From the NCBI RefSeq assembly GCF_011634835.1, contig NZ_SIRP01000001.1, positions 1,026,768 to 1,090,767 of the forward strand: a stretch of DNA of 64,000 nt. The letters are read 5' to 3'. Below the pieces are notes generated by a model, which saw only the letters and a list, made by a program, of their open reading frames with translations, made no database searches and was not told the origin of the DNA. The stretch comes from Isoptericola sp. BMS4. GTDB taxonomy: Bacteria; Actinomycetota; Actinomycetes; Actinomycetales; Cellulomonadaceae. Made by a program: the position numbers and the translations under genes. Below are positions 6,156 through 54,757 of this stretch, piece after piece (the stretch's first letter is position 1; each line of letters opens with the position of its first letter).

Positions 6156-6176
6156 GGGATCCGAGGCCCGGATCCC
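6156..6176 (+). terminator. Hairpin after uxuB
   Basis: GGGATCCG (6156-6163) pairs perfectly with CGGATCCC (6169-6176) around the loop AGGCC, 33 bases after the uxuB stop. There is no U-run, as is common for actinobacterial terminators. The remainder of the 320-base gap up to 6443 holds only the promoter/operator described next. Confidence 0.5.
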
Positions 6177-6338
6177 CACGGGCAGGGACGGCCGTCGTCC
6201 CGGCCGCTGCGTGACCTGGGGCGTTGGGCTCCGTGACCCGCGTCACGTAGCCTTCCGGGGCGCGCCTTCCGGCGCCCCGTGCTCCCATCGTCTCGGCCTG
6301 CGTTGCGAGATCGTGACCGGCGGATCGGGGCAGGGGGG

Positions 6339-6377
6339 TGGACAGCGCTTCCCGATGGTGCTTATTGTATCGATTCA
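6339..6377 (+). promoter_or_regulatory. Promoter and rhamnose-type operator of the first ABC transporter
   Basis: TGGACA (6339-6344) and TATTGT (6363-6368) are separated by 18 bases and form a plausible promoter. The operator TGTATCGATTCA (6366-6377) overlaps the -10; it matches the TGAAnCGnTTCA motif before rhaI, rhaM and the GH42 gene except for one base. This places the transporter at 6444-9782 in the rhamnose regulator's regulon. Confidence 0.6.
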
Positions 6378-6443
6378 GTCGGTGGCCGTGAGGGTGCTCG
6401 CAGTCGAGCCCAGCACCGACGCCGAACGAGCGAGGAGGCTCCG

Positions 6444-7763: not shown

Positions 7764-7765
7764 CG

Positions 7766-8808: not shown

Positions 8809-9782
8809 GCGCGCACACCTCGACTCCGCAGACCCAGTCCCTGTCGAATCAGGCCGCCGCCGCGCTACCCCCGGGCGCCGGAGGAGCCGGCGGGCACGAC
8901 CCGAACGGTGAGGCGGCGAAGGCCGCCCGCCGGGGTGCCGCCCGGCGCCGCAAGGGCCTCAAGGCCCTGGGTTTCCACGCGGTGATGCTCGCCGCCACCG
9001 TGGTGGTGCTCTACCCCGGCGTGTGGATGCTGACCAGCTCGTTCAAGCCCACGAACGAGATCATCGGCAACATCAGCCTGTGGTCGGACAACATGTCCGT
9101 GGACAACTTCGCCACCGCCCTGTCCGGGATCGGCGGGGTCGGGTTCTGGACCTTCTTCACCAACTCGATGATCCTCGCGATCGCGTCAGTGGTCGGGGTG
9201 ACGCTGTCGGCCTCGGTGAGCGCGTACGCGTTCGCCAGGATCAACTTCCCCGGCCGGGGCGTGTTCTTCGCGATCATGATCGGCACGCTGCTGCTGCCGT
9301 TCCACGTCGTGATCATCCCGCAGTACGTCATGTTCAACCAGTTCGGGATGGTCAACACCTTCATCCCGCTGCTCGCGCCGAAGTTCCTCGCCGCCGAGGC
9401 CTTCTTCGTCTTCCTCATGGTCCAGTTCATGCGCAACCTCCCGCGCGAGCTCGACGAGGCCGCCCGCATCGACGGGTGCGGCCACACCCGCATCTTCGCC
9501 TCGATCATGCTGCCCCTGATGCGCCCCGCGATCATCACCTCCAGCATCTTCGCGTTCATCTGGTCCTGGAACGACTTCCTCGGACCCCTGCTCTACCTCA
9601 AGAAGCCCGACCTGTACTCCCTACCCATCGCCCTACGCCTCTACGTCGACCAGACCTCCGTGTCCGACTACGGCGCCCAGATGGCCATGGCCGTCCTCGC
9701 CCTGGTCCCCGTGATGATCTTCTTCATCCTCTTCCAGCGCTACATCGTCGACGGCGTCGCCACCCAAGGACTCAAGGGCTGA
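8805..9782 (+). CDS. Sugar ABC transporter permease 2
   Basis: Second CUT1-type permease (MalG-like), 325 residues. A long hydrophilic N-terminal tail of about 55 residues precedes the first membrane segment (FHAVMLAATVVVLYPGVWML), followed by five more segments. The EAA loop reads ELDEAARIDGCGHTRIFASIMLP, and the C-terminus IVDGVATQGLKG is typical. The ATG at 8805 overlaps the stop of permease 1. Leucine codons in the permease pair, notably TTG early in permease 1, are less uniform than in neighbouring genes. The stop at 9780-9782 falls in the first copy of the 62-bp duplication, so this protein is intact. No ATPase gene follows; a shared MsiK-type ATPase is the usual partner in actinobacteria. 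Confidence 0.9.
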   Translation: MSAHTSTPQTQSLSNQAAAALPPGAGGAGGHDPNGEAAKAARRGAARRRKGLKALGFHAVMLAATVVVLYPGVWMLTSSFKPTNEIIGNISLWSDNMSVDNFATALSGIGGVGFWTFFTNSMILAIASVVGVTLSASVSAYAFARINFPGRGVFFAIMIGTLLLPFHVVIIPQYVMFNQFGMVNTFIPLLAPKFLAAEAFFVFLMVQFMRNLPRELDEAARIDGCGHTRIFASIMLPLMRPAIITSSIFAFIWSWNDFLGPLLYLKKPDLYSLPIALRLYVDQTSVSDYGAQMAMAVLALVPVMIFFILFQRYIVDGVATQGLKG

Positions 9783-9844
9783 TCTTCATCCTCTTCCAGC
9801 GCTACATCGTCGACGGCGTCGCCACCCAAGGACTCAAGGGCTGA
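9721..9844. repeat. Exact 62-bp tandem duplication at the 3' end of permease 2
   Basis: Bases 9721-9782, the last 62 bases of permease 2 including its stop, are repeated exactly at 9783-9844. The second copy is not translated as part of the permease. Length and perfection match the duplication at 7837-7960. Between the two, 7899-9782 would then be one contig of 1,884 bp. Confidence 0.9.
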
Positions 9845-9855
9845 CGGGCCGCACC

Positions 9856-10560
9856 ATGGCGCACTCCTCACGACGCCGGCCCGCGCGGGGCCCCGCCGCC
9901 TCCCGGGCGGCGGGGGCCTCCGGGCCGACCCGCGCCGGCGCCGCGCTCGGGCTGCTGGGTGAGGTGCTCCTCGCCGGGGTCCTGGCCACCGTCGGGAGCC
10001 TGCTCGTCGTGACGGCCGTGCCGTCGGTGGCGGCGGCGGTGGCGCACGTGCGCCGGCATGTCGCGGGCCTCGACACAGGCGTGGGCCGGTTCGCCCGCGA
10101 GTGGTGGGCCGCCGTGCGCGCGCTCTGGATCCTCGGCGCCGGCGGGCTCGCGCTCGCCCTGCTGCTGGTGTTCGACCTGCTGCTCGCGTCGTCCGGCGTG
10201 CTCCCCGGGGCCGACGTCGTCGCCGCCGTGGTGGCCCTGGCCGCCGCGGGCGCCGTCGTCGTCCTGCTGCGCGCCGCGGGGGCCTGGTCCGACGACGAGG
10301 GCACACCGTCCGGTGCCAGGGCGCGGTCCGCGCTCGCCCGCGGCGCCGAGGCCGCCCGTGACGACCTCGTCGGGTCGGTCCTGCTCGTCGTCGCCGTCGG
10401 CCTGTGCGCCACGTTCGTGTGGATGCTGCCGGCGCTGCTGTTCGTCGTCGGCGGCCTGCTGGCGCTGGCCGTGGTCGGCGTCGAGGCGCGGCGCCGCACC
10501 CACGCCGCGGCGGACCCGAGCTCCCGCCCGCCGGGGGGCGCCTCCGGCCCGCGGGGCTGA
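9856..10560 (+). CDS. DUF624-like (YesL-type) membrane protein
   Basis: A 234-residue membrane protein with four to five hydrophobic segments, at about residues 30-60, 90-115, 120-140 and 175-205. The early region LVVTAVPSVAAAVAHVRRHVAG resembles the DUF624/YesL pattern in which a Pro-(T/S)-x-A-A turn follows the first helix. YesL-type proteins commonly sit in operons with sugar ABC transporters, including the Bacillus rhamnogalacturonan locus, but their role is unknown. Here it lies between the first permease pair and the second binding protein, which fits. The ATG at 9856 has only a weak ribosome site. Family assignment is by pattern and context only. Confidence 0.6.
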   Translation: MAHSSRRRPARGPAASRAAGASGPTRAGAALGLLGEVLLAGVLATVGSLLVVTAVPSVAAAVAHVRRHVAGLDTGVGRFAREWWAAVRALWILGAGGLALALLLVFDLLLASSGVLPGADVVAAVVALAAAGAVVVLLRAAGAWSDDEGTPSGARARSALARGAEAARDDLVGSVLLVVAVGLCATFVWMLPALLFVVGGLLALAVVGVEARRRTHAAADPSSRPPGGASGPRG

Positions 10561-10643
10561 CCCCGCACCCCCCTCATCTCCCTCCGGGCACCGCCCGGAG
10601 CCCGGCGGCGCCGCCCCGGGACCCCCACCCGAAGGAGACCACC

Positions 10644-11951
10644 GTGCGTTCCCCTGCCCGCCGTGCGCTCGTCGCCGGCTCGTCGGCACTCGCCGTCGCC
10701 CTGCTCACCGCCGCGTGCTCCGGCGGCACCCCGTCCGGGACGGCGGCGTCGTTCGACCCCGACGAGGAGGTCACCCTCACCGTCGCGTGGTGGGGCGACG
10801 ACGACCGGGCGGCGCGCTACACCGAGGCGCTCGACCTCTTCACCGAGCAGCACCCGAACGTCACCATCCAGCGCTCCTTCGTCGCGTTCGACGACTACTG
10901 GACGGCGCGCGCGACCGAGGCGGCCGGGAGCTCGCTGCCGGACGTCATGCAGTTCGACTCCTCGTTCCTGCGCGAGTACGCGGGCACCGGCCAGCTCCTC
11001 GACGTCTCGCCGTACCTGGGCGACGAGATCGACACCTCCCAGCTCGCCGACGAGCTCATCGACTCCGGCCGGATCGGCGACGCCGTGTACGCCGTGCCGA
11101 CGGCCACCAACACGTTCGCGTCGTTCTACAACCCGGCGGTCGTCGAGGAGCTCGGCATGGAGCCGCCGTCCGAGGCCTACACGTGGGACGAGCTGGCCGA
11201 CTGGGTGGCGAAGGCCAGCACCGCCGGGGCGGACGGCGACCCGGTGCTGTACGGGTCCAACGACTACACGGGCGTCTTCTGGGCGTTCCTGCAGCACCTG
11301 GTGCAGGAGGGCGTCACGCCGTTCACCGACGACGGGCAGCTCGGCTTCACCCGCGAGGACATGGCCGCGTGGCTGCACACCGGCGACGACCTGCGGTCGG
11401 GCGGCAGCTTCTTCCCCGTCCAGCGCCAGCAGCAGCTCGCTCCCGAGGGCGGCTTCACCGTCAACGAGCAGGCGCTCGAGATGAGCTGGGACAACTTCCT
11501 CGCCGGGTACGTCGCGTCGTCGGGCACCGACGACATCACGATGCTGCCGGTGCCGTCCGGCTCCGACGGCGAGAAGCACATGTTCGCCCGCACGTTCCAG
11601 ATGGCGGCCTCCGCGCACACCGAGCACCCGGCCGCCGTCGCCGAGCTGCTGGACTTCCTGGTCAACGAGCCCGAGGTGGGGCGCATCTTCGGCACCTCGA
11701 AGGGCGTGCCGGCCACCCAGGCGCAGCGCGACGCGATGGAGATCGAGCCGGGGTCCGTCGACGAGCGCGTCGTGGCGTACGAGGAGGAGTACGCGGACCA
11801 GATCACCGAGCCGGCGCCCGTCCCCGTCGAGGGATTCGGGGCGCTGGAGGCCGAGTTCAAGCGGCTCGGCGAGGAGCTGGCCTACGGGAACGTCACGGTG
11901 GACGAGTTCGTGGAGCAGTGGTTCTCGCTGGCCGAGGACCAGCTCGGCTGA
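10644..11951 (+). CDS. Sugar ABC transporter substrate-binding lipoprotein (copy B)
   Basis: Second CUT1 solute-binding lipoprotein of this locus, 435 residues, with signal peptide and lipobox LTAAC near residues 21-25. The start is the GTG at 10644 with GAAGGAG upstream. The mature protein closely parallels the protein at 6444: TVAWWGDDDRAARYTEALDLF, YWTARATEAAG-SLPDV, TWDELADW, ATQAQRDAMEIEPGSVDE and the same C-terminal EFKRLGEEL block. It has no permease genes of its own, so it probably delivers a related ligand to the permeases encoded at 7766-9782. Divergence in the central region may give different specificity. Confidence 0.88.
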   Translation: MRSPARRALVAGSSALAVALLTAACSGGTPSGTAASFDPDEEVTLTVAWWGDDDRAARYTEALDLFTEQHPNVTIQRSFVAFDDYWTARATEAAGSSLPDVMQFDSSFLREYAGTGQLLDVSPYLGDEIDTSQLADELIDSGRIGDAVYAVPTATNTFASFYNPAVVEELGMEPPSEAYTWDELADWVAKASTAGADGDPVLYGSNDYTGVFWAFLQHLVQEGVTPFTDDGQLGFTREDMAAWLHTGDDLRSGGSFFPVQRQQQLAPEGGFTVNEQALEMSWDNFLAGYVASSGTDDITMLPVPSGSDGEKHMFARTFQMAASAHTEHPAAVAELLDFLVNEPEVGRIFGTSKGVPATQAQRDAMEIEPGSVDERVVAYEEEYADQITEPAPVPVEGFGALEAEFKRLGEELAYGNVTVDEFVEQWFSLAEDQLG

Positions 11952-11973
11952 GACAGAGGGGAGGAACGGGGCG

Positions 11974-13092
11974 ATGAAGGTCACGATCCTGGGTGCCGGC
12001 GCGATCGCCGGCGCCCATGCGGAGGCGCTGGCGGCCCTGCCCGCCCACGGCGTCGACGGCGTTGAGCTGACGCACGTCGTGGACGTGGACGCGGGCCGCG
12101 CGGCGGAGCTGGCCGCGCGGCACGGCGTGCCCCACCACGGCACCGACCTGCGGGCGCTGCTGGACGCGGGCGAGGTGGACGCCGTGCACGTGTGCACGCC
12201 GCCTGCCGTGCACCTGGAGGCGGCTCTCGCGGCGCTGCGGGCCGGGGTCCACGTCGTCGTGGAGAAGCCGGCGGTGCTGTCGCTGGCCGAGGCGGACGCC
12301 CTCGCGGCGGCCGAGCGCGAGGCGCACGCCGCCGGCCTGACCGGCCGGTTCACCCAGATCGTGCAGCACCGGTTCGGCGCCGGGATCCCGCGCCTGCGCC
12401 GGTTCCTCGACGACGGCACGCTGGGGGCCGCCTACGTGGCGCAGTGCGACACCCTGTGGTTCCGGACGCCGGCCTACTTCGAGGTGCCGTGGCGCGGCCG
12501 CTTCGACACCGAGGGCGGCGGCACCACCATGGGGCACGGCATCCACCAGTTCGACCTGCTGCTGGCCGTCCTCGGCCCGTGGGTCGAGGTGCGGGCGATG
12601 GCCGGCCGGCTCGCCCGGCGCACGGACACGGAGGACGTGTCGACGGCGCTGGTGCGCTTCGCGAACGGCACGATGGCGACGATCACCAACTCCGCGATCT
12701 CGCCGCGCCAGACGTCGCGCCTGCGCTTCGACACCGAGGCCGCAACGGTCGAGCTGGAGCACCTCTACGGTTACGACGACGCCGACTGGACGGTCACGCC
12801 CGTCGAGGGCCGTGAGGACGTCGCCGAGGCGTGGTCCGCCGACGCGGCGCGGTCGGACGACGACGGGGCGAGCGGCCACCTGGCGCAGCTCGTGCCGACC
12901 TACCGTGCCCTGGTCGAGGGCCGGACGCCGCCCGTCACCGTCGCGGACACCCGCGACACCCTCGAGCTGGCCGCGGCGATCTACAAGTCGGCGTTCACGG
13001 ACGCCACCGTGCGGGCCGGCGAGATCGTCGACGGCGACCCGTTCCACGCCTCGATGGCGGGCACCGGCACGCCGTGGCCCCCGGTCACCTGA
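11974..13092 (+). CDS. Gfo/Idh/MocA family oxidoreductase
   Basis: NAD(P)-dependent sugar or sugar-acid dehydrogenase of the glucose-fructose oxidoreductase/inositol dehydrogenase family, 372 residues. The Rossmann fold opens with VTILGAGAIAGAHAEAL, and the family marker VVEKPAVLS sits near residue 95. The C-terminal half carries the substrate-binding segment GGGTTMGHGIHQFDLLL, whose histidines are expected to be catalytic. It starts 22 bases after the second binding-protein gene behind GGGGAGG and closes this operon. Its substrate is unknown; context suggests a sugar imported by the adjacent transporter. Confidence 0.85.
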   Translation: MKVTILGAGAIAGAHAEALAALPAHGVDGVELTHVVDVDAGRAAELAARHGVPHHGTDLRALLDAGEVDAVHVCTPPAVHLEAALAALRAGVHVVVEKPAVLSLAEADALAAAEREAHAAGLTGRFTQIVQHRFGAGIPRLRRFLDDGTLGAAYVAQCDTLWFRTPAYFEVPWRGRFDTEGGGTTMGHGIHQFDLLLAVLGPWVEVRAMAGRLARRTDTEDVSTALVRFANGTMATITNSAISPRQTSRLRFDTEAATVELEHLYGYDDADWTVTPVEGREDVAEAWSADAARSDDDGASGHLAQLVPTYRALVEGRTPPVTVADTRDTLELAAAIYKSAFTDATVRAGEIVDGDPFHASMAGTGTPWPPVT

Positions 13093-44316: not shown

Positions 44317-45198
44317 TCACAGGTGCGGCAGCACGTGCCGCGCGTAGCGTTCGCCCACGGTGCGGGCGGTCTCGCGCGGGTCGGCCGCCCAGATCTCGGA
44401 GTTGAAGATCTCCGTCTCGACGTCGCCGTCGTAGCCGGCCTCGGCCACCCAGCGGGTGACGGTGGGGAAGTCGACGTAGCCGTCGCCCACGTGCCCGCGC
44501 GAGTTGAGCGGGTCCGCCGCGAGCGGCAGGTTCCAGTCGCACACCTGGTAGCTCGCGATGCGGCTCTCCCGCCCGGCCCGCGCGATCTCGTCCCGCAGCC
44601 GGGGGTCCCACCACACGTGGTAGGTGTCGACGACGACGCCGACGACCTCCGGGGCGAACGGCGCGGCCAGGTCGAGGGCCTGCCCGAGGGTGGAGATCAC
44701 CGCGCGGTCGGCGGCGAACATCGGGTGCAGGGGCTCCAGGACGATCCGCACGCCGTGCTCGGACGCGAAGGGGGCCAGGTCGGCGAGGCGGTCGGCCACG
44801 CGGGAGCGCGCCGCGACCAGGTCGCGGTCGCCCGGCCCGGCGTCGGGCCGCGGCCCCTGCCCGGGCTCGCTCAGCGCCGGCAGCCCGCCGACGACGAACA
44901 CGAGCTCGCGCGTGCCGACGCCCGCGGCCTCCTCGATCGCCCGCCTGTTGTCGTCCAGCGCCGTGGCGATCCCCGCGTCGTCCGCCGTGGTGAGGAACCC
45001 GCCGCGGCACAGCGACGAGACGCGCAGCCCGGCGTCCGACACGATCCGGGCGGCCTTCTCGGCGCCGTGCTCAGCCACCTGGTGGCGCCACAGCCCGACC
45101 GCTCCCATGCCCGCGCCCGCGGCGGCGTCGACGGCCTCCGTGAGCGTCGCGTGCTTGACCGTCGCGGTGTTGAGGGAGCAGCGGCTCAGGTCGCTCAT
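44317..45198 (-). CDS. Sugar phosphate isomerase/epimerase (AP-endonuclease-2-like TIM barrel)
   Basis: A 293-residue xylose-isomerase-like TIM-barrel protein. Metal-ligand positions are visible in IVLEPLHPMFAADRA (Glu), VVDTYHVWWDP (Asp, His), ASYQVCDWNLP and GDVETEIFNSEIW (Glu). Members act as epimerases, isomerases or dehydratases on sugars, inosose and keto-acids. The ATG at 45198 overlaps the stop of the DUF993 gene (ATGA). Together with the upstream Gfo/Idh dehydrogenase it forms a coupled three-gene module: dehydrogenase, aldolase-like protein, isomerase. I infer a linear pathway for an unidentified sugar derivative. Confidence 0.8.
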   Translation of the reverse strand: MSDLSRCSLNTATVKHATLTEAVDAAAGAGMGAVGLWRHQVAEHGAEKAARIVSDAGLRVSSLCRGGFLTTADDAGIATALDDNRRAIEEAAGVGTRELVFVVGGLPALSEPGQGPRPDAGPGDRDLVAARSRVADRLADLAPFASEHGVRIVLEPLHPMFAADRAVISTLGQALDLAAPFAPEVVGVVVDTYHVWWDPRLRDEIARAGRESRIASYQVCDWNLPLAADPLNSRGHVGDGYVDFPTVTRWVAEAGYDGDVETEIFNSEIWAADPRETARTVGERYARHVLPHL

Positions 45199-46469
45199 GA
45201 GTCCACCCCGTTCGTCGTGAGGAACGCCCCGAGGCGGCGGGCGGCGAGGCCCGGATCGAGCAGCATGCCGCAGCCGTCGGCGAGGCGCGCGAGCTCCACC
45301 AGGTGGGCCGCGGAGCGGCCGGAGTGCAGGCCGCCCACGAGCTGGAAGCCGGGCTGGAACCCGTTCAGCCAGGACAGGAACGCCACGCCCGTCTTGTAGT
45401 AGTAGGTCGGCGCGGCGAAGATGTGCCGGCCCAGCCTCTCGGTCGAGGCGAGGATCGCGTGCCCCCGCGCGGCATCGCCGGCGTCGAACGCCTGCAGGGC
45501 GGTGGAGGCCGCCGGGTAGATCGCCGCGAAGATGCCGAGCAGGGCGTCGGAGTGCCCCTGCTCGTCGCCCGCGATCAGCTCCGGGTAGTTGAAGTCGTCG
45601 CCGGTGTACAGGCGTACCGGGGAGCCGTCGAGCGCCGCGAGCGCGCGGCGCAGGCCGATCTCGTGCCCGGCGTCGAGCAGCGAGACCTTCACCCCGTCGA
45701 CCCTGTCCTGGTGGGCCTTGATGAGGTCGAGGAAGGTGGCGGTGGCGCTCTCGACGTCGTCCGACCCCCAGTAGCCTGCCAGGGCGGGGTCGAACATCGT
45801 CCCGAGCCAGTGCAGGACCACGGGCTTCTCGGCCTCGGTGAGGACGGCGTCGTAGACGCGGGCGTAGTCCTCGGGGGAGCGCGCGACCTTCGCCAGCGCG
45901 CGGGAGGCCATGACGATGACCTGGGCGCCCGCGTCCTGGACGACGTGCACCTGCTCCCGGTACGCCTCGATCACGGCGGCCAGGCCGGCCTCGCCCGGCT
46001 CGACGGACGCCGGGTCGAGCTGGTCGGTGCCCGCGCCGCACGCGATGCGGGCGCCGACGGACGCGGCCTCGGCCGACGAGCGGCGCACCAGCTCCTGCGT
46101 GGCCGCCCAGTCCAGGCCCATGCCCCGCTGGGCGGTGTCCATGGCGTCGGCGACGCCGAGGCCGAAGCGCCAGATCTGGTGCCGGTAGGCGAGCGTGGCG
46201 TCCCAGTCGACGACGGCGGGCGCGCCCGGCACGTTCTCGGCGCCGATGCGCGGCACCACGTGCGCGGCGGCGAACGCCACGCGGGAGCCGATCGGCTCGG
46301 CGGGGGCCGTCCACGGCCCGGGGGCGTTGAGCTCGCGCACCTCGGTGCCGACGGCGCGGCCGGCGTCGTCGAAGCGCGGCAGGCGGACGGTGACGCCGCT
46401 GCCGGTGAGCTCGGGCGCGTGCGCGATGCTGGTCCGGGGGCCGGTCCGGGTGCTGGTCGTGGCGGTCAC
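45195..46469 (-). CDS. DUF993 family protein (dihydrodipicolinate-synthase-like aldolase fold)
   Basis: A 424-residue member of DUF993, related to class I lyases of the DHDPS/aldolase superfamily. It includes VVDWDATLAYRHQIWRFGLGVADAMDTAQRGMGLDW, a barrel segment VVLHWLGTMFDPALAGYWGS, and VDGVKVSLLD, whose lysine is a good Schiff-base candidate; GDDFNYPELI follows. The GTG at 46469 overlaps the preceding stop (GTGA). The reaction is unknown. Position between a dehydrogenase and a TIM-barrel isomerase suggests it cleaves or condenses a keto-sugar (acid). The rigid gene order and overlaps imply the three proteins work together. Confidence 0.82.
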   Translation of the reverse strand: MTATTSTRTGPRTSIAHAPELTGSGVTVRLPRFDDAGRAVGTEVRELNAPGPWTAPAEPIGSRVAFAAAHVVPRIGAENVPGAPAVVDWDATLAYRHQIWRFGLGVADAMDTAQRGMGLDWAATQELVRRSSAEAASVGARIACGAGTDQLDPASVEPGEAGLAAVIEAYREQVHVVQDAGAQVIVMASRALAKVARSPEDYARVYDAVLTEAEKPVVLHWLGTMFDPALAGYWGSDDVESATATFLDLIKAHQDRVDGVKVSLLDAGHEIGLRRALAALDGSPVRLYTGDDFNYPELIAGDEQGHSDALLGIFAAIYPAASTALQAFDAGDAARGHAILASTERLGRHIFAAPTYYYKTGVAFLSWLNGFQPGFQLVGGLHSGRSAAHLVELARLADGCGMLLDPGLAARRLGAFLTTNGVDS

Positions 46470-47632
46470 AGCGAGATCTCCGGGACGTCGAGGCGGCGGC
46501 CCTCGGCCGACGAGCGCAGGCCCAGCTCGGCGAGCTGGACGCCGCGGGCGGCGGAGAGCAGGTCGAAGCGGTGGGGGCGCTCGGCGACGACGTCGCGCAG
46601 GAACTCCTCCCACTGCAGCTTGAAGCCGTTGTCGAGGTCGCCGTTGGCGGGCACCTCGAGCCACTGGTCGCGGAACGGCTCGGTGACGGGCAGGTCGGGG
46701 TTCCACACCGGCTTGGGGGTGTGGGCGCGCTGCTGCGCCACGCACTTGCGCAGGCCGGCGACGGCGGAGCCGTGCGTGCCGTCCACCTGGAACTCGACGA
46801 GCTCGTCGCGGTAGACGCGCACCGCCCAGGACGAGTTGATCTGTGCGACGACCGGATCGCCGCCCGGGGTCTCGATGCCGAAGATGCCGTACGCGGCGTC
46901 GTCGGCGGTCGCGGCGTACTCGCGGCCCTGCTCGTCCCAGCGGGTGGGGATGTGGGTGGTCGTCTGGGCGTTCACCGTCTTCACGGAGCCGAGGATGCCC
47001 TCGAGGACGTAGTTCCAGTGGCAGAACATGTCCGTCGTCATGCCGCCGCCGTCCTCCTTGCGGTAGTTCCACGACGGGCGCTGCGCGTCCTGGTGGTCGC
47101 CCTCGAACACCCAGTAGCCGAACTCGCCGCGCAGCGACAGGATGCGGCCGAAGAAGCCCTCGTCCACGAGCCGGCGCAGCTTGACCAGGCCCGGCAGGTA
47201 CAGCTTGTCGTGCACGACGCCGGCGGTGACGCCCGTGGACTCGCGGAGGCGGGCGAGCTCGATCGCCTCGTCGAGGGTCTCCGCCGTCGGCTTCTCGGTG
47301 TAGACGTGCTTGCCGGCCTTCATCGCCTTCGTCAGCGTGGCGGGGCGCAGGTTCGTCATCGCGGCGTCGAACACGATGTCGGTGCCCGGGTCGGTGACGA
47401 CACCGTCGAGGTCGGTCGTGTACTCGGCGACGTCGTGCTGCTTGGCCAGCTCGCGCAGCTTCTCCTCGTTGCGGCCCACGAGCACGGGCTCGACCTGCAC
47501 GCGGGTGCCGTCAGGCAGCTCGACGCCGCCGGCCTCGCGGATCGGCAGGATCGAGCGCACGAGGTGCTGGCGGTAGCCCATGCGGCCGGTCACGCCGTTC
47601 ATCGCGATGCGCAGGGTGCGGGATGTCGTCAT
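46466..47632 (-). CDS. Gfo/Idh/MocA family oxidoreductase
   Basis: A 388-residue NAD(P)-dependent dehydrogenase. The Rossmann motif is atypical, IAMNGVTGRMGYRQHL instead of GxGxxG, a variant seen in a sub-branch of this family. The family lysine-proline marker is in HVYTEKPTAETLDEA (near 118), and the substrate domain carries GGGMTTDMFCHWNYVL. It probably oxidises a sugar, inositol-like or sugar-acid hydroxyl to a ketone for the downstream DUF993 protein. ATG at 47632 with GGAG upstream; first gene of the module, preceded by an operator at 47722-47735. Confidence 0.85.
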   Translation of the reverse strand: MTTSRTLRIAMNGVTGRMGYRQHLVRSILPIREAGGVELPDGTRVQVEPVLVGRNEEKLRELAKQHDVAEYTTDLDGVVTDPGTDIVFDAAMTNLRPATLTKAMKAGKHVYTEKPTAETLDEAIELARLRESTGVTAGVVHDKLYLPGLVKLRRLVDEGFFGRILSLRGEFGYWVFEGDHQDAQRPSWNYRKEDGGGMTTDMFCHWNYVLEGILGSVKTVNAQTTTHIPTRWDEQGREYAATADDAAYGIFGIETPGGDPVVAQINSSWAVRVYRDELVEFQVDGTHGSAVAGLRKCVAQQRAHTPKPVWNPDLPVTEPFRDQWLEVPANGDLDNGFKLQWEEFLRDVVAERPHRFDLLSAARGVQLAELGLRSSAEGRRLDVPEISL

Positions 47633-47713: not shown

Positions 47714-47735
47714 AGCATAGCGGCAAGCGCTTACC
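47714..47735 (-). promoter_or_regulatory. Promoter/operator of the Gfo/Idh - DUF993 - TIM module
   Basis: On the minus strand GGTAAGCGCTTGCC (47735-47722), a palindrome with one mismatched pair centred on GCGC, is of LacI-operator type. It is followed by TATGCT (47719-47714), a good -10. The operator would cover the spacer/-35 region. Which of the window's regulators binds is unclear. Confidence 0.55.
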
Positions 47736-47777
47736 GAACGCCACCGGCGGTCCCTCTTGACCGTCTTCGGCCAATCC

Positions 47778-47795
47778 TGTTTCCTATAGGAAACA
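47778..47795 (+). promoter_or_regulatory. Perfect 18-bp palindrome before the sugar-acid operon
   Basis: TGTTTCCTATAGGAAACA is a perfect palindrome, 26 bases before the TTG start at 47821 and containing a TATA-like core. It is the only such site in the divergent gap and is the best candidate operator for the GntR/FCD regulator at the far end of the operon (52882-53589). A half-site GTTTCCT also occurs at 53649-53655 near that regulator's start. Confidence 0.6.
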
Positions 47796-47820: not shown

Positions 47821-48750
47821 TTGCCCACCGCGGACACCTGGCCCGTCGCGGCCAACATGCTGTCGTTCGGCGCCACGGCTGCCGACGGCACCCCCAACCT
47901 CGAGGCGCCCGCCACGTCCTGGCGCGACCAGCTCCGGCAGGTCGCCGACCTCGGGTTCACCGAGGTCGACCCCACCGACGCCTGGCTGTCGGTCGGGGAG
48001 ATGAGCGACGCCCGCTTCGCCGAGCTGCGGGAGGTGCTCGGCGAGGTGGGTCTCAGCGTCCCGTCCGTCTCGACGACGCGGCGCAGCCTCGTGGACGCCG
48101 ACCGGGGCGCGGACTACCTGCGCTTCGCGCACGCGATCGTCGACCGGGCGCCGGCCCTGGGAGCCCAGGTCGTGAGCGTCGGCTTCATGCAGGCGCTCAC
48201 GCCCGCCCAGGAGCGGGCGCTGTGGTTCTGGCTCGCCGAGGGTCATCACGACGACCTGGACGACGCGGGGACCCGGGACCTCGCCGTGCGGCGGGTGCGC
48301 GAGCTCGCCGACCACGCCGCGCAGGTCGGCGTCCAGGTCAGCCTCGAGATGTACGAGGACACCTACATCGGCACCCCGGACCTCGCCGTGCGGTTCCTCG
48401 AGGACGTCGGGCGCGACAACGTCGGCCTCAACCCCGACCTCGGCAACCTCGTGCGCCTGCACCGGCCGATCGAGGACATCCCGACGATGTTCGAGAAGGT
48501 CCTGCCGCACACCAACTTCTGGCACATCAAGAACTACACGCGCGACCACGACCCGGCCACGGGCGCCTACGTCACCCACCCGACGCCGCTGGTCCAGGGC
48601 GTCGTCAACTACCGCGCCGTGATCCGGCGGGCGCTCGACCTCGGCTTCGAGGGCGTCTTCGTCTGCGAGCACTACGGGTCGGACAGCCTCGGCGTGGCCG
48701 CCCTCAACCGCGACTACATCCGCGGCGTGCTGCGCTCCGCCGGCCGCTGA
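47821..48750 (+). CDS. Xylose-isomerase-like TIM-barrel protein, candidate 3-keto-acid decarboxylase or isomerase
   Basis: A 309-residue sugar phosphate isomerase/epimerase-family barrel. Metal-site residues are visible in VSLEMYEDTYIGTP (Glu), VGLNPDLGNLVRLHRP (Asp), FWHIKNYTRDHDP (His) and GFEGVFVCEHYG (Glu). The start is TTG at 47821 with GGAG upstream. It leads an operon with a dihydroxyacetone-kinase-like kinase, RpiB-like and TIM-like isomerases and a 3-hydroxyacid-type dehydrogenase. In the described D-apionate pathway a protein of this fold (OiaC) decarboxylates 3-oxo-isoapionate to erythrulose. By analogy this protein may decarboxylate the product of the dehydrogenase at 51865. That is inference; simple isomerase or epimerase activity is the alternative. 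Confidence 0.75.
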   Translation: MPTADTWPVAANMLSFGATAADGTPNLEAPATSWRDQLRQVADLGFTEVDPTDAWLSVGEMSDARFAELREVLGEVGLSVPSVSTTRRSLVDADRGADYLRFAHAIVDRAPALGAQVVSVGFMQALTPAQERALWFWLAEGHHDDLDDAGTRDLAVRRVRELADHAAQVGVQVSLEMYEDTYIGTPDLAVRFLEDVGRDNVGLNPDLGNLVRLHRPIEDIPTMFEKVLPHTNFWHIKNYTRDHDPATGAYVTHPTPLVQGVVNYRAVIRRALDLGFEGVFVCEHYGSDSLGVAALNRDYIRGVLRSAGR

Positions 48751-48805
48751 CCCCATCCGCACGGCGCGCACCGCGCGCCACCGTCCGAGCGAAGGTGCTT
48801 GAGCC

Positions 48806-50548
48806 ATGACCCACGTGCACAACCGACCCGAGGACTTCGCCCGCGAGGCGCTCGACGGCCTCGTCAAGGCCCACGCCGGCACGCTGCGGCGGGTGCCGGG
48901 CGGGGTGGCGCGCGCCGAGGGCACCCGGGCCGGCAAGGTCGCCGTCGTCGTCGGCGGCGGGTCCGGCCACTACCCGGCCTTCGCGGGGCTCGTGGGCGAC
49001 GGCCTGGCCGACGCCGCCGTGTGCGGCGAGGTGTTCGCCTCCCCGTCCACCCGCCAGGTGCTGGACGTGTGCCACGCGGCCGACGCGGGCGCCGGCATCT
49101 GGCTGTCGTTCGGCAACTACGCCGGGGACGTGCTCAACTTCGGCGCCGCCGCGAGCCGGCTGCGCGCGCAGGGCGTGGACGTCACCGTCCGCCTCGTGAC
49201 CGACGACGTCGCCTCCGCCCCCGCCGACCGCGCCGACGAGCGACGCGGTGTCGCCGGGGACCTGGTCGTCTTCAAGATCGCCGGCGCCGCCGCCGAGGCG
49301 GGCGCCGACCTGGCGGAGGTGGACCGCCTGGCGGGGCGCGCGAACGACCGCACCTGCTCCTTCGGGGTCGCCTTCGACGGCTGCACGCTGCCGGGCGCCG
49401 ACGCGCCGCTGTTCAGCCTGCCCGACGGCACGGCGGGCTGGGGGCTGGGCGTCCACGGCGAGCCGGGGATCGGTGAGGAGCCGCTGCCCCCGGCCGCCGG
49501 GCTCGCGGCCGAGCTCGTGGACCGGGTGCTCGCCGAGCGTCCGCAGGACGCCGACGGGCGCGCCGCCGTCCTGCTCAACGGCCTCGGCGCGGTCAAGTAC
49601 GAGGAGCTCTTCGTGCTGTGGGACAGGGTGCACGACCTGCTCGCCGAGCGCGGCGTGACGCTCGTCGCGCCCCTCGTCGGGGAGTACGTGACCAGCCTCG
49701 ACATGGCCGGCTGCTCGCTCACCGTGACCTGGTTGGACGACGAGCTGGAGCGGCTGTGGCTCGCCCCGGCCGCCACCCCCGCGTTCCGGCACGGCGGCTG
49801 GCGAGCGGCCGCGGCGTCGGCCCCGCCGGAGGCGCGCACCGAGCCCGAGCCCCCTCTCACGGCCGCCGCCACGGAGCCCGGCTCCGAGGCCGCCCGGGTC
49901 GTGGCCCGGGCGCTGCACCGGGCGCGGGACGTGCTGCACGCCGCCGAGGACGAGCTCGGCGCGCTCGACGCCGTCGCCGGCGACGGCGACCACGGGCGCG
50001 GCATGTGCCGCGGGGCCGACGCCGCGGTCGAGGCGGCGGACGCGGCGCTCGCCGCGGGCGGCGACGCCCCGTCGGTGCTGCGCCGTGCCGCGGACGCCTG
50101 GGCCGACCGCGCCGGCGGGACCTCGGGGGCCCTGTGGGGCGTGGGGCTGCTGGCGCTGGCCGACCGGCTCCCCGCCGACGCGGCGCTGACCGGCGGGCAC
50201 GTCGTCGACGGTGTCCGGGCCGCGTGCGACGAGGTGTGCGCCGTCGGGGGCGCGCGCGTCGGCGACAAGACCCTCGTCGACGCCCTCGCCCCCGCCGTCG
50301 AGGCGCTCGACCGGGCGCACCGGGCGGGTGAGCCGCCGACGGACGCCTGGCGCGCCGCGGTCCGGGCCGCCCGCGAGGGCGCGGCCCGCACCCGGGAGAC
50401 CACGGCGCGCCGCGGACGTTCGCGCGTGCTGGGGGACAAGAGCCTCGGGGTCGCCGACCCGGGGGCGACGTCGCTCGCGCTCCTCCTCGCGGAGGTCGGG
50501 GCGGAGCTCGGCGCCGGCACGGACGACGCGGAGGTGGAGGCACGATGA
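48806..50548 (+). CDS. DhaK-DhaL fused ketose kinase (dihydroxyacetone/erythrulose kinase type)
   Basis: A 580-residue ATP-dependent kinase with both domains in one chain. DhaK (about 1-330) has [10 protein letters not shown] for the substrate site and GVHGEPG, the region of the histidine that binds the ketone covalently. DhaL (about 365-575) has [10 protein letters not shown], which holds Mg-nucleotide, and [12 protein letters not shown]-dependent fused kinases of this kind phosphorylate dihydroxyacetone, and close homologues (LerK, DerK) phosphorylate L- or D-erythrulose. The RpiB-like and TIM-like isomerases downstream are the signature partners of erythrulose phosphate metabolism, so an erythrulose is the likely substrate. 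The ATG at 48806 has GAAGG upstream; the stop overlaps the next start (ATGA at 50545). Confidence 0.85.
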
Positions 50549-51063
50549 CGAGCACGAAGACACCGGACGCGCTGCGGGTCGTGGTCGGCTCGGACGACGC
50601 CGGGCTCGACTACAAGGAGGTCCTCCGGGCGGACCTCGAGGCGGACGACCGGGTCGCGTCGGTGACCGACGTCGGCGTGGGCCGCGACGAGCACACCCCC
50701 TACCCGTACGTCGGGGCGGCCGCCGCGCGGCTCGTGGCGGCCGGCGAGGCCGACCGGGCCCTGCTCGTGTGCGGGACGGGGCTCGGCGTGGCCATCTCCG
50801 CCAACAAGGTGCCCGGCGTGCGCGCCGTCACCGCCCACGACTCGTTCTCCGTCGAGCGCGCGGTGCTGTCGAACGACGCCCAGGTCCTCTGCTTCGGCCA
50901 GCGCGTCGTCGGTATCGAGCTCGCCCGGCGCCTGCTGCGCGAGTGGCTCGGCTACCGCTTCGACCCGGCGTCGGCGTCCGCGCCCAAGGTCGCGGCGATC
51001 GGCGAGGTCGAGGCGAGCGCCGGGACCGGAGAGACGCCCGAGGCCGCCGGGTCCTGCGGATGA
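50545..51063 (+). CDS. RpiB-family isomerase (tetrose/pentose phosphate)
   Basis: A 172-residue RpiB/LacAB-type isomerase: [20 protein letters not shown] at the N-terminus, the active-site cysteine in [22 protein letters not shown] and [27 protein letters not shown]. The dipeptide SD-DAG/D-S-F differs from ribose-5-phosphate RpiB (usually D-HAG and CHD/E-Y) and resembles the branch acting on D-erythrulose 4-phosphate / D-erythrose 4-phosphate (EryI/DerI). Coupled at both ends by ATGA overlaps to the kinase and to the TIM-like gene. Predicted to yield erythrose 4-phosphate for the pentose phosphate pathway. An Ala/Glu-rich C-terminal tail of about 20 residues is unusual. Confidence 0.82.
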
Positions 51064-51815
51064 CCCGCCGGCCGCTCGTCGCCGTCTCCCTGAAGGCGTA
51101 CCTCGGCGCCGCCGAGACCGAGCGCTGGCTCGCCCGCGTGCGGGACGCGGCGCCGGGGGAGGACGTCGAGCTCGCCGTCCTGCCGGCGTTCCCCCTGCTG
51201 CCCGCGGCCGCGCGGCTCCTGACGGGCACGTCCGTGGCGTGGGGCGCGCAGGACGTCGCGCCCGGGGCGCACGGCGCCCAGACCGGCGAGGTCACCGCCG
51301 CGCTGCTCGCCGAGCTCGGGTGCACCCTGGCCGTGGTGGGGCACGCCGAGCGGCGCTCGGCGTTCGGCGAGGACGACGCCGTCGTGCGCGCCAAGGTCGC
51401 CCGCCTCGCCGAGGCGGGCGTCACCCCGCTGCTGTGCGTCGGGGAGCGCGAGCAGGTCTCGGCCCACCAGGCCGCGCTCGCGGCGACCGCGCAGCTCGAG
51501 AGCGCGCTGCGGGGGAGCGGGGCGTCGAGCGTCGTCGTCGGGTACGAGCCCGTGTGGGCCATCGGCGCACCGCGGCCCGCCGGGGCCGAGCACGTCGTGA
51601 CCGTGGCGCGGGCCCTGCGCGGGTGGCTCGACGCCCGCGGCATCGACGGTCGCGTGCTCTACGGCGGGGCGGCCGGCCCCGGTACCCTCACGGCCCTCGC
51701 CGGCGGCGTGGACGGCGTGTTCCTCGGCCGGTTCGCCCACGACGTCGACACCCTGCGCGAGGTGCTCGACGAGGCCGCGCCCGCACGGCCCCCCGGCGCG
51801 GCCGCCGGGCCGTGA
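51060..51815 (+). CDS. Triosephosphate-isomerase-like protein (LerI/EryH type)
   Basis: A 251-residue TIM homologue with the catalytic lysine in VSLKAYLG, histidine in [14 protein letters not shown] and glutamate in [13 protein letters not shown]; the phosphate-binding YGGAAGPG and [12 protein letters not shown] are present. VGHAERR instead of the glycolytic VGHSERR, the SLKAY instead of NWKMN start and the operon context point to the branch that interconverts L-erythrulose 1-phosphate and D-erythrulose 4-phosphate rather than glycolytic TpiA. ATG at 51060 overlaps the RpiB-like stop. A true second triosephosphate isomerase cannot be excluded from sequence. Confidence 0.82.
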
Positions 51816-51864
51816 CCGACGCCCGCCCAGGCCCACCCCCAGCATCACCAGAGAGGACACCACG

Positions 51865-52824
51865 ATGGTCACCAGCATCCGCAGCGTCGCCGTGATCGGC
51901 GCCGGCTACATGGGAGGAGGCATCGCGCAGTCCCTCGCGCTCGCCGGCCTGCCCGTCACGATCGCCGACGTCTCCGCCGAGGCGACCGAGGCCGCCCACG
52001 AGCGGCTCCTCGCCGAGGCCCAGGAGTTCGAGGACGCCGGCCTGTACGACGCCGGCGCGACCGCGACGATCCGCGCGAACCTGCGCACCGCCGCGTCGAT
52101 CGAGGACGCCGTCGCCGACGCCGACCTCGTCGAGGAGGTCGTGTTCGAGTCGGTCGAGGTCAAGCACGACGTCCTCGCCCGTATCTCCGCCGCGGCCCGC
52201 CCCGACGCGATCATCGGCTCGAACACGTCGACCATCCCGGCCCGCGTCCTCGCGACGGCCGTGACGCACCCCGAGCGCTTCCTCACGGTGCACTTCTCCA
52301 ACCCGGCGCCCTTCATCCCGGGCGTCGAGCTCGTCCTCGGCGAGCGGACCGACGAGGCCGTCGTCCCCGTCGTCAAGGAGCTCCTGGCGAAGGCGGGCCG
52401 CGAGGCCGCCATCGTGGCCGACGTCCCCGGCTTCGTGCTCAACCGGCTGCAGTACGTGCTGCTCAAGGAGGCCATGTCGATCGCCGAGGAGGGCATCGCC
52501 TCGCCCGAGGACATCGACACCGTGGTCCGCACGACGTTCGGCTTCCGCCTCGGGTTCTTCGGCCCGTTCGCCATCGCGGACCAGGCCGGCCTCGACGTGT
52601 ACGCCGGCGGGTTCCGCACCTTCGAGGAGGCCTTCGGCGAGCGGCTGAGCACGCCCGCCCTCATCGCCGACGCCGTGGCGGGCGACCGTCGCGGCGTGAA
52701 GAACGGCAAGGGGCTGCTGAAGGACTACACGCCCGAGCAGGTCAAGGCGCTCGTCGCGCACCGCAACAAGGCGTACAGCGAGATGGGGCGCCTCGTCCGC
52801 TCGCTCGGCCCCGCCCCGGCCTGA
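51865..52824 (+). CDS. 3-hydroxyacyl-CoA-dehydrogenase-fold dehydrogenase, probably a sugar-acid 3-dehydrogenase
   Basis: A 319-residue NAD-dependent dehydrogenase: VIGAGYMGGGIAQSLALAGLPVTIAD nucleotide fold, VEEVVFESVEVKHDVLARI, SNTSTIPARVLAT, and the catalytic His-Glu pair in VHFSNPAPFIPGVELVLGERT. The C-terminal domain carries GFVLNRLQYVLLKEAMSIAEEG and FGFRLGFFGPF. There is no CoA-metabolism neighbour. The closest functional analogues are the hydroxyacid members such as L-gulonate 3-dehydrogenase, which oxidise C3 of an aldonate to a beta-keto acid prone to decarboxylation. In this operon that would feed the TIM-barrel protein at 47821. ATG at 51865 with AGAGAGGA upstream, 49 bases after the TIM-like gene. 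Substrate is inferred only. Confidence 0.8.
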   Translation: MVTSIRSVAVIGAGYMGGGIAQSLALAGLPVTIADVSAEATEAAHERLLAEAQEFEDAGLYDAGATATIRANLRTAASIEDAVADADLVEEVVFESVEVKHDVLARISAAARPDAIIGSNTSTIPARVLATAVTHPERFLTVHFSNPAPFIPGVELVLGERTDEAVVPVVKELLAKAGREAAIVADVPGFVLNRLQYVLLKEAMSIAEEGIASPEDIDTVVRTTFGFRLGFFGPFAIADQAGLDVYAGGFRTFEEAFGERLSTPALIADAVAGDRRGVKNGKGLLKDYTPEQVKALVAHRNKAYSEMGRLVRSLGPAPA

Positions 52825-52881: not shown

Positions 52882-53589
52882 CTACGCGTCCTGGGGCGAC
52901 GACGGGGCGTCGTGCTCCGCCAGCGACCGCGAGCGCACGCCCTCGATGTGCCGGCGCATGAGCTCCTCCGCGCGCGCCGGCACCCCGGAACGCATGGCCT
53001 CCAGGACCGCCCGGTGCTCGCGGACGGCCACCTCCTTGTCGGTCACGCCCGTCCCGGAGAACTGGCGGAAGCGCTGCGCCAGCCCGCCGAGCGCCGCGAA
53101 GGCGGCCTGCAGGTACGTGTTGTCCGCGGCCTCGGCCACGAGGGCGTGGAACCGCTCGTCGGCCTCCCAGTAGGCGCGGAACTCCGGGTACGTGGGCCCG
53201 TTGGGGGCCGCCTCCAGCGCCGCCACGGCCTGCTCCAGCGCCGCGAGGAACTCGTCGTCGCCGCGCGTGCAGGCGAAGTACGCCGTCGCGGGTTCGACGG
53301 CGAGCCGCGCGTCCATGAGGTCCGCCAGCTCCTTCGGCGTCGGCGCGGGGGTGACGAAGTACCCGCGCAGCGCCACCCGCCGCACCATGCCGGTCGACTC
53401 CAGGCGGGCGAGCGCCTCGCGCACGGGTGTGGGGGAGACGTCGAGCTCGCGCGCGATGCCGTCGATGTTGAGGCTGCTCCCGGCCGACAGGGTGCCGTCC
53501 ATGAGCCGCGAGAGCAGCTCGTCGAACACGTGGTCGGCGAGCACCTGCCGTCGGAGGGGGGCGGCGGGCGGAGCGCTGGTCCTGGGCAC
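52882..53589 (-). CDS. GntR-family regulator with FCD sensor domain
   Basis: A 235-residue FadR/GntR regulator. Winged HTH at about 14-75 (VLADHVFDELLSRLMDGTLSAGSSLNIDGIARELDVSPTPVREALARLESTGMV), then an all-helical FCD effector domain at about 85-220 with metal/acid-binding residues (DMARLAVE-type DARLAVEPATA, DERFHALV, REHRAVLEAM, RRHIEGV). FCD regulators usually sense organic or sugar acids, which suits control of the convergent sugar-acid operon at 47821-52824. GTG at 53589 is the start; ribosome site weak. Candidate operator TGTTTCCTATAGGAAACA lies at 47778. Confidence 0.88.
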   Translation of the reverse strand: MPRTSAPPAAPLRRQVLADHVFDELLSRLMDGTLSAGSSLNIDGIARELDVSPTPVREALARLESTGMVRRVALRGYFVTPAPTPKELADLMDARLAVEPATAYFACTRGDDEFLAALEQAVAALEAAPNGPTYPEFRAYWEADERFHALVAEAADNTYLQAAFAALGGLAQRFRQFSGTGVTDKEVAVREHRAVLEAMRSGVPARAEELMRRHIEGVRSRSLAEHDAPSSPQDA

Positions 53590-53743: not shown

Positions 53744-54757
53744 GTGGCCCGACCGCGGCTGCAGGACGTCGCCGACCGCGCGGGGGTCTCGCTGGCCACC
53801 GCGTCCCGCGTGCTCAACGGGTCGTCCCGGCAACCCGGGCCCGAGCTCGTGGACCGCGTGCGCAGCGCTGCCGCCGAGCTGGGCTACGTGGTCAACGCCC
53901 AGGCGCAGGCGCTCGCCCGGTCCCGCAGCGGGCTGCTGGGGCTGGTCGTGCACGACATCTCCGACCCGTACTTCTCCTCGATCGCCGCGGGTGCGCAGGC
54001 CGCGGCCCGCGAGCACGGCAGCCTGGTGCTCCTGGCGTCGACCGGGCGCGACCCCGAGGTGGAGCGGGAGGCCGTCGCGGCCTTCGCCGCCCACCGGGTC
54101 GACGCCCTCGTGGTCGCCGGCACCCGGTGGACGCCCGAGGACGACGAGGCGCTCGCGGGCGCGCTGAGCACCTACGAGGCGGCCGGCGGCCGGTCGGTCA
54201 TCGTCGGCCAGCCGGTCGGCGACGGACGGGTGGTGCGGCCGCCGAACTCGACGGGCTCACGGGCCCTGGCCGAGGCCCTGCTCGACCAGGGGTGGCGACG
54301 GTTCGCCGTCGTCGGCGGGTCGGGCCTCGTCGTGACCTCGCGCGAGCGCACCGACGCCTTCGTCGAGGCCGTGCGCGCGGGGGGCGGGGAGGTCGTCGAC
54401 GTCGTCGACACGGAGTTCTCCCGCGACGGCGGCCACGCGGCCGGTGAGGAGGTCGCGGCCCTCGCGAGGGCGCACACCGACCCGCCGCTGTGCGTGTTCG
54501 CGGTCGCCGACGTCATCGCCATCGGGCTCATCGCCCGGCTGCGTGAGCTGGGCCTCGACGTGCCCCGCGACGTGCGTGTCGCCGGGTTCGACGACATCCC
54601 GACCCTGCGTGACCACGTCCCCGCGCTGACCACCGTGCGCATCCCGCTGGAGGAGATGGGCCGGCTCGCGGTCAGCGCGGCGGTGGCCGAGGAGGCGCCC
54701 GACGTGGTCGAGGTCGGCTACGACGTCGTGCTGCGGGAGAGCACCGCCGACGCCTGA
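53744..54757 (+). CDS. LacI-family transcriptional regulator
   Basis: A 337-residue LacI/GalR repressor with HTH RPRLQDVADRAGVSLATASRVLNGS, hinge LGYVVNAQAQALARSRSG and sensor LLGLVVHDISDPYFSSIAAGAQAA ... TTVRIPLEEMGRLAVSAAV. I choose GTG at 53744, directly behind GGAGGTGGAG. It is divergent from the GntR gene and convergent with the glycosyltransferase, so its targets are not clear from position; the sulfatase genes or the sugar-acid operon are nearest. No paired operator could be identified in the 154-base upstream gap. Confidence 0.87.
   Translation: MARPRLQDVADRAGVSLATASRVLNGSSRQPGPELVDRVRSAAAELGYVVNAQAQALARSRSGLLGLVVHDISDPYFSSIAAGAQAAAREHGSLVLLASTGRDPEVEREAVAAFAAHRVDALVVAGTRWTPEDDEALAGALSTYEAAGGRSVIVGQPVGDGRVVRPPNSTGSRALAEALLDQGWRRFAVVGGSGLVVTSRERTDAFVEAVRAGGGEVVDVVDTEFSRDGGHAAGEEVAALARAHTDPPLCVFAVADVIAIGLIARLRELGLDVPRDVRVAGFDDIPTLRDHVPALTTVRIPLEEMGRLAVSAAVAEEAPDVVEVGYDVVLRESTADA

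Follow-up and report, generated by a model that had tools for sequence, protein, structure and literature searches.

A 64,000-nucleotide stretch of the 4.4-Mb genome of Isoptericola sp. BMS4 (contig NZ_SIRP01000001.1, positions 1,026,768 to 1,090,767; hereafter the window) carries five plus-strand open reading frames (ORFs) that fill positions 47821-52824 and encode, in this order, a xylose-isomerase-like TIM-barrel protein (TIMB), a fused DhaK-DhaL kinase (DAK), an RpiB-family isomerase, a TPI-like isomerase and a dehydrogenase of the HCDH type. This operon is considered here as a possible catabolic route for a sugar acid. A preliminary description, made from the letters of the window, had placed five collinear genes of these families here, and both the ORF calls (heuristic in our scripts) and Pfam, with every match above its cut-off, bore this out (Table 1). 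It had also called the genes mostly overlapping, which was overstated: two of the four junctions overlap by 4 nt (DAK/RpiB and RpiB/TPI-like), while at the remaining two the genes are separated by 55 and 49 nt. Judged by HCDH, the closest named relatives belong to Isoptericola (95 and 93% identity).

Table 1. Features of the operon and its surroundings, in window coordinates
Feature	Position	Strand	Evidence
TIMB, xylose-isomerase-like TIM barrel, TTG start	47821..48750	+	PF01261 (AP_endonuc_2); PDB 5tnv 410 bits
DhaK-DhaL fusion kinase (DAK), proposed L-erythrulose kinase	48806..50548	+	PF02733+PF02734 (Dak1+Dak2)
RpiB-family isomerase, proposed D-erythrulose-4-phosphate to D-erythrose-4-phosphate	50545..51063	+	PF02502 (LacAB_rpiB)
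TPI-like isomerase, proposed L-erythrulose-1-phosphate isomerase	51060..51815	+	PF00121 (TIM)
HCDH-type dehydrogenase, proposed to oxidise a sugar acid at C3 with NAD	51865..52824	+	PF02737+PF00725 (3HCDH_N+3HCDH)
GntR/FCD regulator, candidate operon regulator	52882..53589	-	PF00392+PF07729
LacI-family regulator	53744..54757	+	PF00356+PF13377 (Pfam read from 53732; start 53744 from sequence)
18-bp perfect palindrome TGTTTCCTATAGGAAACA, candidate operator, upstream of operon	47778..47795	.	sequence scan

HCDH has both domains of its superfamily, and residues S122, H143, E155 and N193, which we take to be catalytic by comparison with human HAD, are conserved together with R228 in more than 97% of 81 sequences. 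The dehydrogenase had been described as CRYL1/HCDH-type; the HCDH fold was confirmed, but CRYL1 is not its closest relative, since FHMPC dehydrogenase (4om8) scores higher (190 bits) than the CRYL1 lambda-crystallin (3ado, 106 bits). Among three aligned enzymes, the position of R228 is occupied by Lys in FHMPC dehydrogenase, whose substrate, judged by the enzyme name, is presumably a free carboxylate, and by Pro beside a 3-residue gap in two 3-hydroxybutyryl-CoA dehydrogenases. We infer that Arg228 of HCDH may help in carboxylate binding.

For TIMB, residues W7, E176, Y178, E179, D206, N209, K237, E283 and H284 are conserved in more than 97% of 66 sequences. The PDB structure 5tnv ("AP endonuclease, family protein 2"), presumably from M. 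smegmatis, belongs to the TIMB subfamily (match over residues 3-307), and its record states no function. No NCBIfam model reached its cut-off with TIMB.

Association of HCDH with TIMB and exchange of the oxidiser

Among 98 genomes (that of strain BMS4 and relatives), HCDH was found in 19 (E≤1e-60) and TIMB in 27 (E≤1e-50), and all 19 fell within the 27 (hypergeometric 3e-14, relatedness ignored); thus, the association is not due to chance. In 18 of these 19 genomes the two genes share a contig, where only a few kb separate them; in the remaining one (G044) they are on two contigs. Across 396 genomes of the phylum (BMS4 included), TIMB occurred in four, each with HCDH, and those four held the best HCDHs. 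HCDH matched at E≤1e-50 in 16 of these genomes, 12 of which hold only a subfamily of 42-45% identity (family f34), and TIMB was not found at E≤1e-50 in any of the 12.

Gene neighborhoods were compared in the best 80 of 487 tblastn-confirmed HCDH relatives, a sample biased to close HCDHs (a gene counted as present if tblastn at 1e-10 covered 35% or more of the query in flanks of up to 9 kb; 63 loci exceed 18 kb and 17 are 18 kb or shorter). TIMB was present in the flank of 65 loci, and searches of the whole genomes for the remaining 15 detected it in every case at 48-84% identity, giving a total of 80 of 80. DAK was found in 54 loci, RpiB in 42 and TPI-like in 41, with all five genes in 32 and RpiB accompanying DAK in 41 of the 54 DAK loci. 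The hosts are Actinobacteria, such as Isoptericola, Promicromonospora, Brachybacterium, Nesterenkonia, Mycolicibacterium, Kocuria, Rothia, Cellulomonas and others, and Pseudomonadota, mostly Acetobacteraceae.

A different arrangement was observed in Propionibacterium (positions 1-12000 of both L071 and L074), where TIMB-HCDH is preceded by genes for an FGGY kinase and a protein resembling glycerol-1-phosphate dehydrogenase (family assignments from L074); DAK, RpiB and TPI-like were not found in the flanks of these two loci.

Eight of the 98 genomes were TIMB-positive and HCDH-negative. A PdxA-type dehydrogenase with Tct genes was present in three of them (L154, L155 and L157) and an LtnD/HIBADH-type enzyme in another three (L156, L158 and L161). 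Genome G080, with two TIMB copies, had neither HCDH nor a PdxA- or LtnD-type gene next to TIMB; a D-2-hydroxyacid dehydrogenase gene lies ~3 kb from one copy (L159) and a zinc alcohol dehydrogenase beside the other, a TIMB of 39% identity (L160). The TIMB of L162 is on a 5-kb contig too short to read. The cleanest case of exchange is the congener locus L154, in which TIMB, DAK, RpiB and TPI-like share 81-86% identity with their window counterparts and keep the same position beside MocA-DUF993-TIM genes, with GntR-PdxA-Tct genes replacing HCDH. The order PdxA-Tct-TIMB-DAK was also found on rhizobial plasmids; 94 plasmid records had a TIMB match, and those read were H1, H10, H32, H35 and H45, as well as Arthrobacter H51, which was reached via an HCDH hit. 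Aureimonas leprariae (L075) has two oxidisers, with a PdxA-type enzyme, a Tct transporter, one TIMB, DAK and HCDH together. PdxA-type and most HIBADH-family enzymes, like HCDH, oxidise a beta hydroxyl, and it is therefore most likely that the substrate of TIMB is a 3-oxo acid. The picture that emerges is one of oxidoreductase exchange around a constant TIM barrel.

Tetrulose enzymes and sugar-acid context

In the D-apionate pathway, reportedly described by Carter et al. in 2018, a study that PMC6302742 cites, ApnO and OiaC work together with an L-erythrulose kinase and isomerases. We take PF16896 (PGDH_C) to be the ApnO family, which is supported by a plasmid cluster carrying an annotated OiaX, and operons with such a gene (ApnO operons) provided a reference for the enzymes of the window. 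Puerhibacterium (L164) has the order ApnO-c35-TPI-RpiB-DAK, c35 being a family that stands in for OiaC by context alone, and Erwinia (L166) and Pantoea (L167) have DAK-TPI-TIM barrel-ApnO with rpiB close by and, in L167, a transketolase gene as well.

The window DAK scored 724.6 bits with NF011049 (cut-off 492) and is a Dak1-Dak2 fusion of the PRK14479 type, in which H217 of the GVHGEPG segment, presumably the covalent-binding His, is conserved in more than 97% of 55 sequences; it is 52.5 and 53.6% identical to the DAKs of two ApnO operons, but also 55.9% identical to a second DAK encoded in the BMS4 genome. RpiB scored 188 with TIGR02133 (cut-off 168.2) and agrees with actinobacterial RpiB in its C76-G-T-G motif, conserved in 43 sequences, whose C76 we take to be the active-site Cys. 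The TPI-like protein falls, with TPI-like proteins of three ApnO operons, into a 17-row clade (support 100/100), and the signatures VSLK and YEPxWAIGxPxPA are common to it and the ApnO-operon proteins. This clade is sister to that of the L-erythrulose-1-phosphate isomerase LerI (PDB 11ef), and the window protein lies outside the LerI clade; the long-branch rows L091 and L036 were excluded from a second tree. The Mycolicibacterium TPI-like protein is of the LerI type: it scores 234 bits with 11ef against 147 with the best TPI, and is placed on the 11ef side of the tree. Outside the window operon, the BMS4 genome encodes a canonical TPI and two more RpiB proteins, so the operon copies appear to be dedicated. 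The kinase and the two isomerases had been equated with the known erythrulose set; their families and their company in ApnO operons agree with this, but the window TPI-like protein falls outside the LerI clade and RpiB below the cut-off of the DerI model.

A second DAK in the BMS4 genome (L133, C1:2114000-2133000; 8118-10402) matches that of the window at 50% identity and stands beside an RpiB that is 72% identical to the window RpiB; this pair possibly belongs to another tetrulose route. In L055 and L069, DAK and a TPI-like gene come first, then genes for a zinc alcohol dehydrogenase, a DUF2291 protein and an ABC sugar transporter, and finally TIMB-HCDH (families tested on L055), an arrangement that may provide tetritol entry to the same node.

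With regard to the substrate, genes for transporters of the aldonate or carboxylate type were found in 54 of the 80 loci (GntP in 35, MFS in 21 and TctA in 8). In 33 loci GntP is no more than 1.5 kb away from HCDH, and a GntP representative scored 355 with TIGR00791 (cut-off 293); MFS representatives resemble a D-galactonate transporter model at scores below its cut-off. Lactonase-type SGL matches occurred in five loci, in L074 between TIMB and HCDH. Together, these transporter and lactonase-type genes support a free sugar acid as the substrate. GH3 matches were present in 11 of the 80 loci and also in L110, L156, L158 and L163, with GH3 near TIMB in L046 and L056. On a beta-xylosidase/alpha-L-arabinosidase model (cut-off 1050), the GH3 protein of L056 scored below the cut-off (1006.9) and that of L163 above it (1050.2); L163 also has a GH51 gene, ArfA. 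The GH3 and GH51 genes fit arabinose-rich substrates, which is suggestive only and proves nothing.

Stereochemistry offers a further hint. L-3-hydroxyacyl-CoA dehydrogenase and L-gulonate 3-dehydrogenase (CRYL1) prefer C3-left hydroxyls and PdxA-type enzymes C3-right ones. If HCDH keeps a C3-left preference and L-erythrulose is the product, only L-arabinonate and L-ribonate among the eight pentonates would fit by their Fischer projections, and stereochemistry tentatively points to L-arabinonate. A PdxA-type enzyme would then arrive at the same 3-oxo acids from L-lyxonate or L-xylonate.

In six Acetobacteraceae loci (L081, L095, L097 and L103-L105), a D-erythronate-dehydrogenase-family gene and an FMN-dependent alpha-hydroxyacid dehydrogenase lie near TIMB, the copy in L104 scoring 365 against a cut-off of 325 for the former family. 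The two dehydrogenases are perhaps a C2 epimerisation pair.

Proposed route and alternatives

The operon probably specifies a single pathway for the breakdown of a C5 sugar acid, most likely a linear L-pentonate, which would lead via L-erythrulose to erythrose 4-phosphate. HCDH would oxidise the C3 hydroxyl of the sugar acid with NAD to a 3-oxo acid, from which TIMB would release CO2 and L-erythrulose; the DhaK-DhaL kinase would form L-erythrulose 1-phosphate, the TPI-like enzyme would convert it to D-erythrulose 4-phosphate, and RpiB would convert the latter to D-erythrose 4-phosphate. We infer every one of these reactions, just as we infer that TIMB is the decarboxylase and which chain length and stereochemistry the acid has. 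A single route with a sugar-acid substrate and a tetrulose/erythrose 4-phosphate end had already been proposed in the preliminary description, and the coupling of the genes, the transporters and the context of the isomerases agree with that proposal.

Several observations weigh against this reading. The kinase and isomerases are not constant companions, as the flanks of 26 of the 80 loci lack DAK, 38 lack RpiB and 39 lack TPI-like. The window operon has no adjoining transporter, and the MFS transporter of L026 had no match in the BMS4 genome in a search run without a positive control. RpiB scored 143.2 with the DerI model NF051858 (cut-off 240), whose name says rhizobial. The TPI-like protein has 155 bits to canonical TPI and 97 to LerI, is 46% identical both to the TPI of its own genome and to the Erwinia/Pantoea ApnO-operon proteins (54% to that of L164), and was placed in a tree with long branches flagged by the tool. 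In the rhizobial PdxA loci, RpiB and TPI-like are absent from the stretch read, and L-threonate-type genes (DUF1537 kinase and LtnD) are located near HCDH in 12 of the 80 loci, mostly in Brachybacterium, which makes a C4 acid possible. As for the swapped oxidisers, PdxA-type enzymes can decarboxylate by themselves, which would leave TIMB another job, and LtnD is named for the C2 oxidation of L-threonate.

The last point but one leads to a rather unlikely alternative, namely that TIMB is an epimerase or isomerase (a ketose 3-epimerase or an OtnI-like enzyme) and that decarboxylation is spontaneous or carried out by the dehydrogenase. In the PDB search with TIMB, 5tnv was followed by 23 weak and insignificant matches (E 0.005 to 0.7), nine of which are ketose epimerases, and E176, D206 and E283 are consistent with a metal site that would suit an epimerase equally well. 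However, HCDH-type enzymes, unlike their PdxA-type counterparts, are not known to decarboxylate, and yet TIMB accompanies HCDH in all 80 genomes; moreover, TIMB occupies the place that c35 has beside ApnO, for which one would expect a decarboxylase. With 26% identity to c35 and 27% to the Erwinia TIM barrel, TIMB is not established as OiaC.

It is also improbable that the pathway handles a C4 acid, in which case HCDH would oxidise a tetronate (L-threonate or erythronate) at C3, decarboxylation by TIMB or by itself would give dihydroxyacetone, and the kinase and the TPI-like enzyme would yield dihydroxyacetone phosphate and glyceraldehyde 3-phosphate. Dihydroxyacetone is the best-known substrate of the kinase family, and the threonate-type genes in 12 loci, the D-erythronate-dehydrogenase-type gene in six and the rhizobial loci, with no RpiB or TPI-like gene in the stretch read, would all fit. 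But this scheme would leave RpiB without a job despite its presence in 41 of 54 DAK loci, and the BMS4 genome already has its own TPI. Furthermore, the same isomerase types are found in ApnO operons, and the TPI-like protein is of the LerI type in other clusters.

Apionate, named as a possible substrate in the preliminary description, is very improbable, and we rejected it both on chemistry and because ApnO and c35 occur in modules of their own. The idea is that HCDH takes the place of ApnO and TIMB is OiaC, and the operon does share the plan of ApnO-c35-DAK-TPI operons; in addition, TIMB in L055 and L069 is preceded by an ABC permease and a binding protein that share 45-48% identity with those of a rhizobial ApnO/OiaX cluster. 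However, the alcohol at C3 of apionate is tertiary, which makes plain oxidation there impossible, and HCDH lacks the PGDH_C domain. PF16896 was matched in five of the 98 genomes, all HCDH-positive; the other 14 of the 19 HCDH-positive genomes, BMS4 included, had no match. An ApnO-like gene adjoins c35 in the five actinobacterial loci read (L045, L059, L076, L164 and L165, the last two representing the ApnO-positive relatives that were read, 2 of 5) and adjoins a TIM barrel in both Erwiniaceae plasmids read. Puerhibacterium has both the HCDH and the ApnO operons, ~55 kb apart. Among five alphaproteobacterial ApnO loci read, OiaX-type genes are present in L128-L131 and none is annotated in L127, and TIMB had no match in L129-L131. 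The known D-apionate enzyme is an oxidoisomerase, EC 1.1.1.421 (PMC11747546).

Finally, the notion that HCDH is an acyl-CoA dehydrogenase of beta-oxidation beside an unrelated sugar operon, for which its fold might speak, is hardly credible and was rejected on gene context, given its coupling to TIMB in the genomes tested and recurring annotated neighbors that are sugar or sugar-acid genes.

The proposed pentonate route is best read as a variation of the known apionate plan with another oxidiser and probably another starting acid. Both systems combine an oxidiser, a TIM barrel, a DhaK-type kinase, a TPI-like isomerase and RpiB, and they differ in the oxidiser (HCDH-type here and PGDH_C/ApnO there) and in the TIM barrel, as the low identity to the ApnO-linked c35 indicates. 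The L-threonate and D-threonate pathways use LtnD, a DUF1537 kinase and PdxA2; their dehydrogenase families recur as alternative partners of TIMB, whereas the window operon has a DhaK-type kinase and RpiB and no DUF1537 kinase. In tetritol catabolism, LerK, LerI and DerI are an L-erythrulose kinase and two isomerases that end in erythrose 4-phosphate; complementation of an E. coli tktAB deletion strain for erythrose 4-phosphate was used there for LerI and DerI (PMC10733421). Entry in that pathway is by a tetritol dehydrogenase and here would be by a sugar acid, HCDH and TIMB. The animal glucuronate-xylulose route proceeds by L-gulonate 3-dehydrogenase and then 3-dehydro-L-gulonate decarboxylase (PMC6353982). 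It resembles the proposed route in that C3 oxidation by an HCDH fold is followed by decarboxylation to a ketose, but the decarboxylase and substrate size differ, and FHMPC dehydrogenase, not CRYL1, is the nearer relative of our HCDH. An HCDH-type enzyme in this pathway position, which had been called undescribed, was not described in the literature searched, whose coverage was partial, so that novelty is not proven.

If the pentonate route is correct, it would be a bacterial pentonate route without dehydration or phosphorylation of the acid, carrying plant C5 acids to erythrose 4-phosphate, an aromatic precursor, and it would give a function to the TIM-barrel family of 5tnv and to an HCDH subfamily otherwise filed under acyl-CoA enzymes. 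As a more tentative extension, swapped oxidisers in Actinobacteria, Acetobacteraceae and rhizobia might funnel linear L-pentonates into a widespread, so far unrecognised scheme of C3 oxidation and decarboxylation, feeding a shared 3-oxo acid to one TIM-barrel decarboxylase and so to L-erythrulose and erythrose 4-phosphate. HCDH would then take C3-left acids such as L-arabinonate, the PdxA-type enzyme C3-right acids such as L-lyxonate and L-xylonate, and the LtnD-type enzyme would be a third entry. L-lyxonate and L-xylonate are ascorbate-derived C5 acids (PMC11066805) and hence candidate inputs.

Regulators and flanking genes

The palindrome TGTTTCCTATAGGAAACA has a single match in the window at up to three mismatches, with 0 expected, and since it is unmatched elsewhere in the window it does not indicate which regulator binds. 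Its 16-bp core is found exactly upstream of TIMB in L026, L027, L029 and L154, and had no match at up to three mismatches in six of six Promicromonospora loci. A scan for sigma-70 promoters and terminators detected nothing. GntR-family matches were present in 34 of the 80 HCDH loci. The oxidiser-swapped locus L154 retains a copy of the LacI gene that is 82% identical (partial, at the locus edge), and its GntR protein is 41% identical to that of the window.

Upstream of the operon and divergent from it, MocA and DUF993 genes and a gene for a second TIM barrel (window 44317-47632, minus strand) are kept beside it in L026, L029 and L154. We rejected this gene set as part of the pathway: the complete set was found in the flank of 2 of the 80 loci (L026 and L029) and also at L154, and MocA alone in L027, all of them same-genus or same-family neighbors, so that conservation of the set does not follow that of the pathway. 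At 47722-47736, by the divergent MocA-DUF993 genes, there is a LacI-like palindrome, GGCAAGCGCTTACCG.

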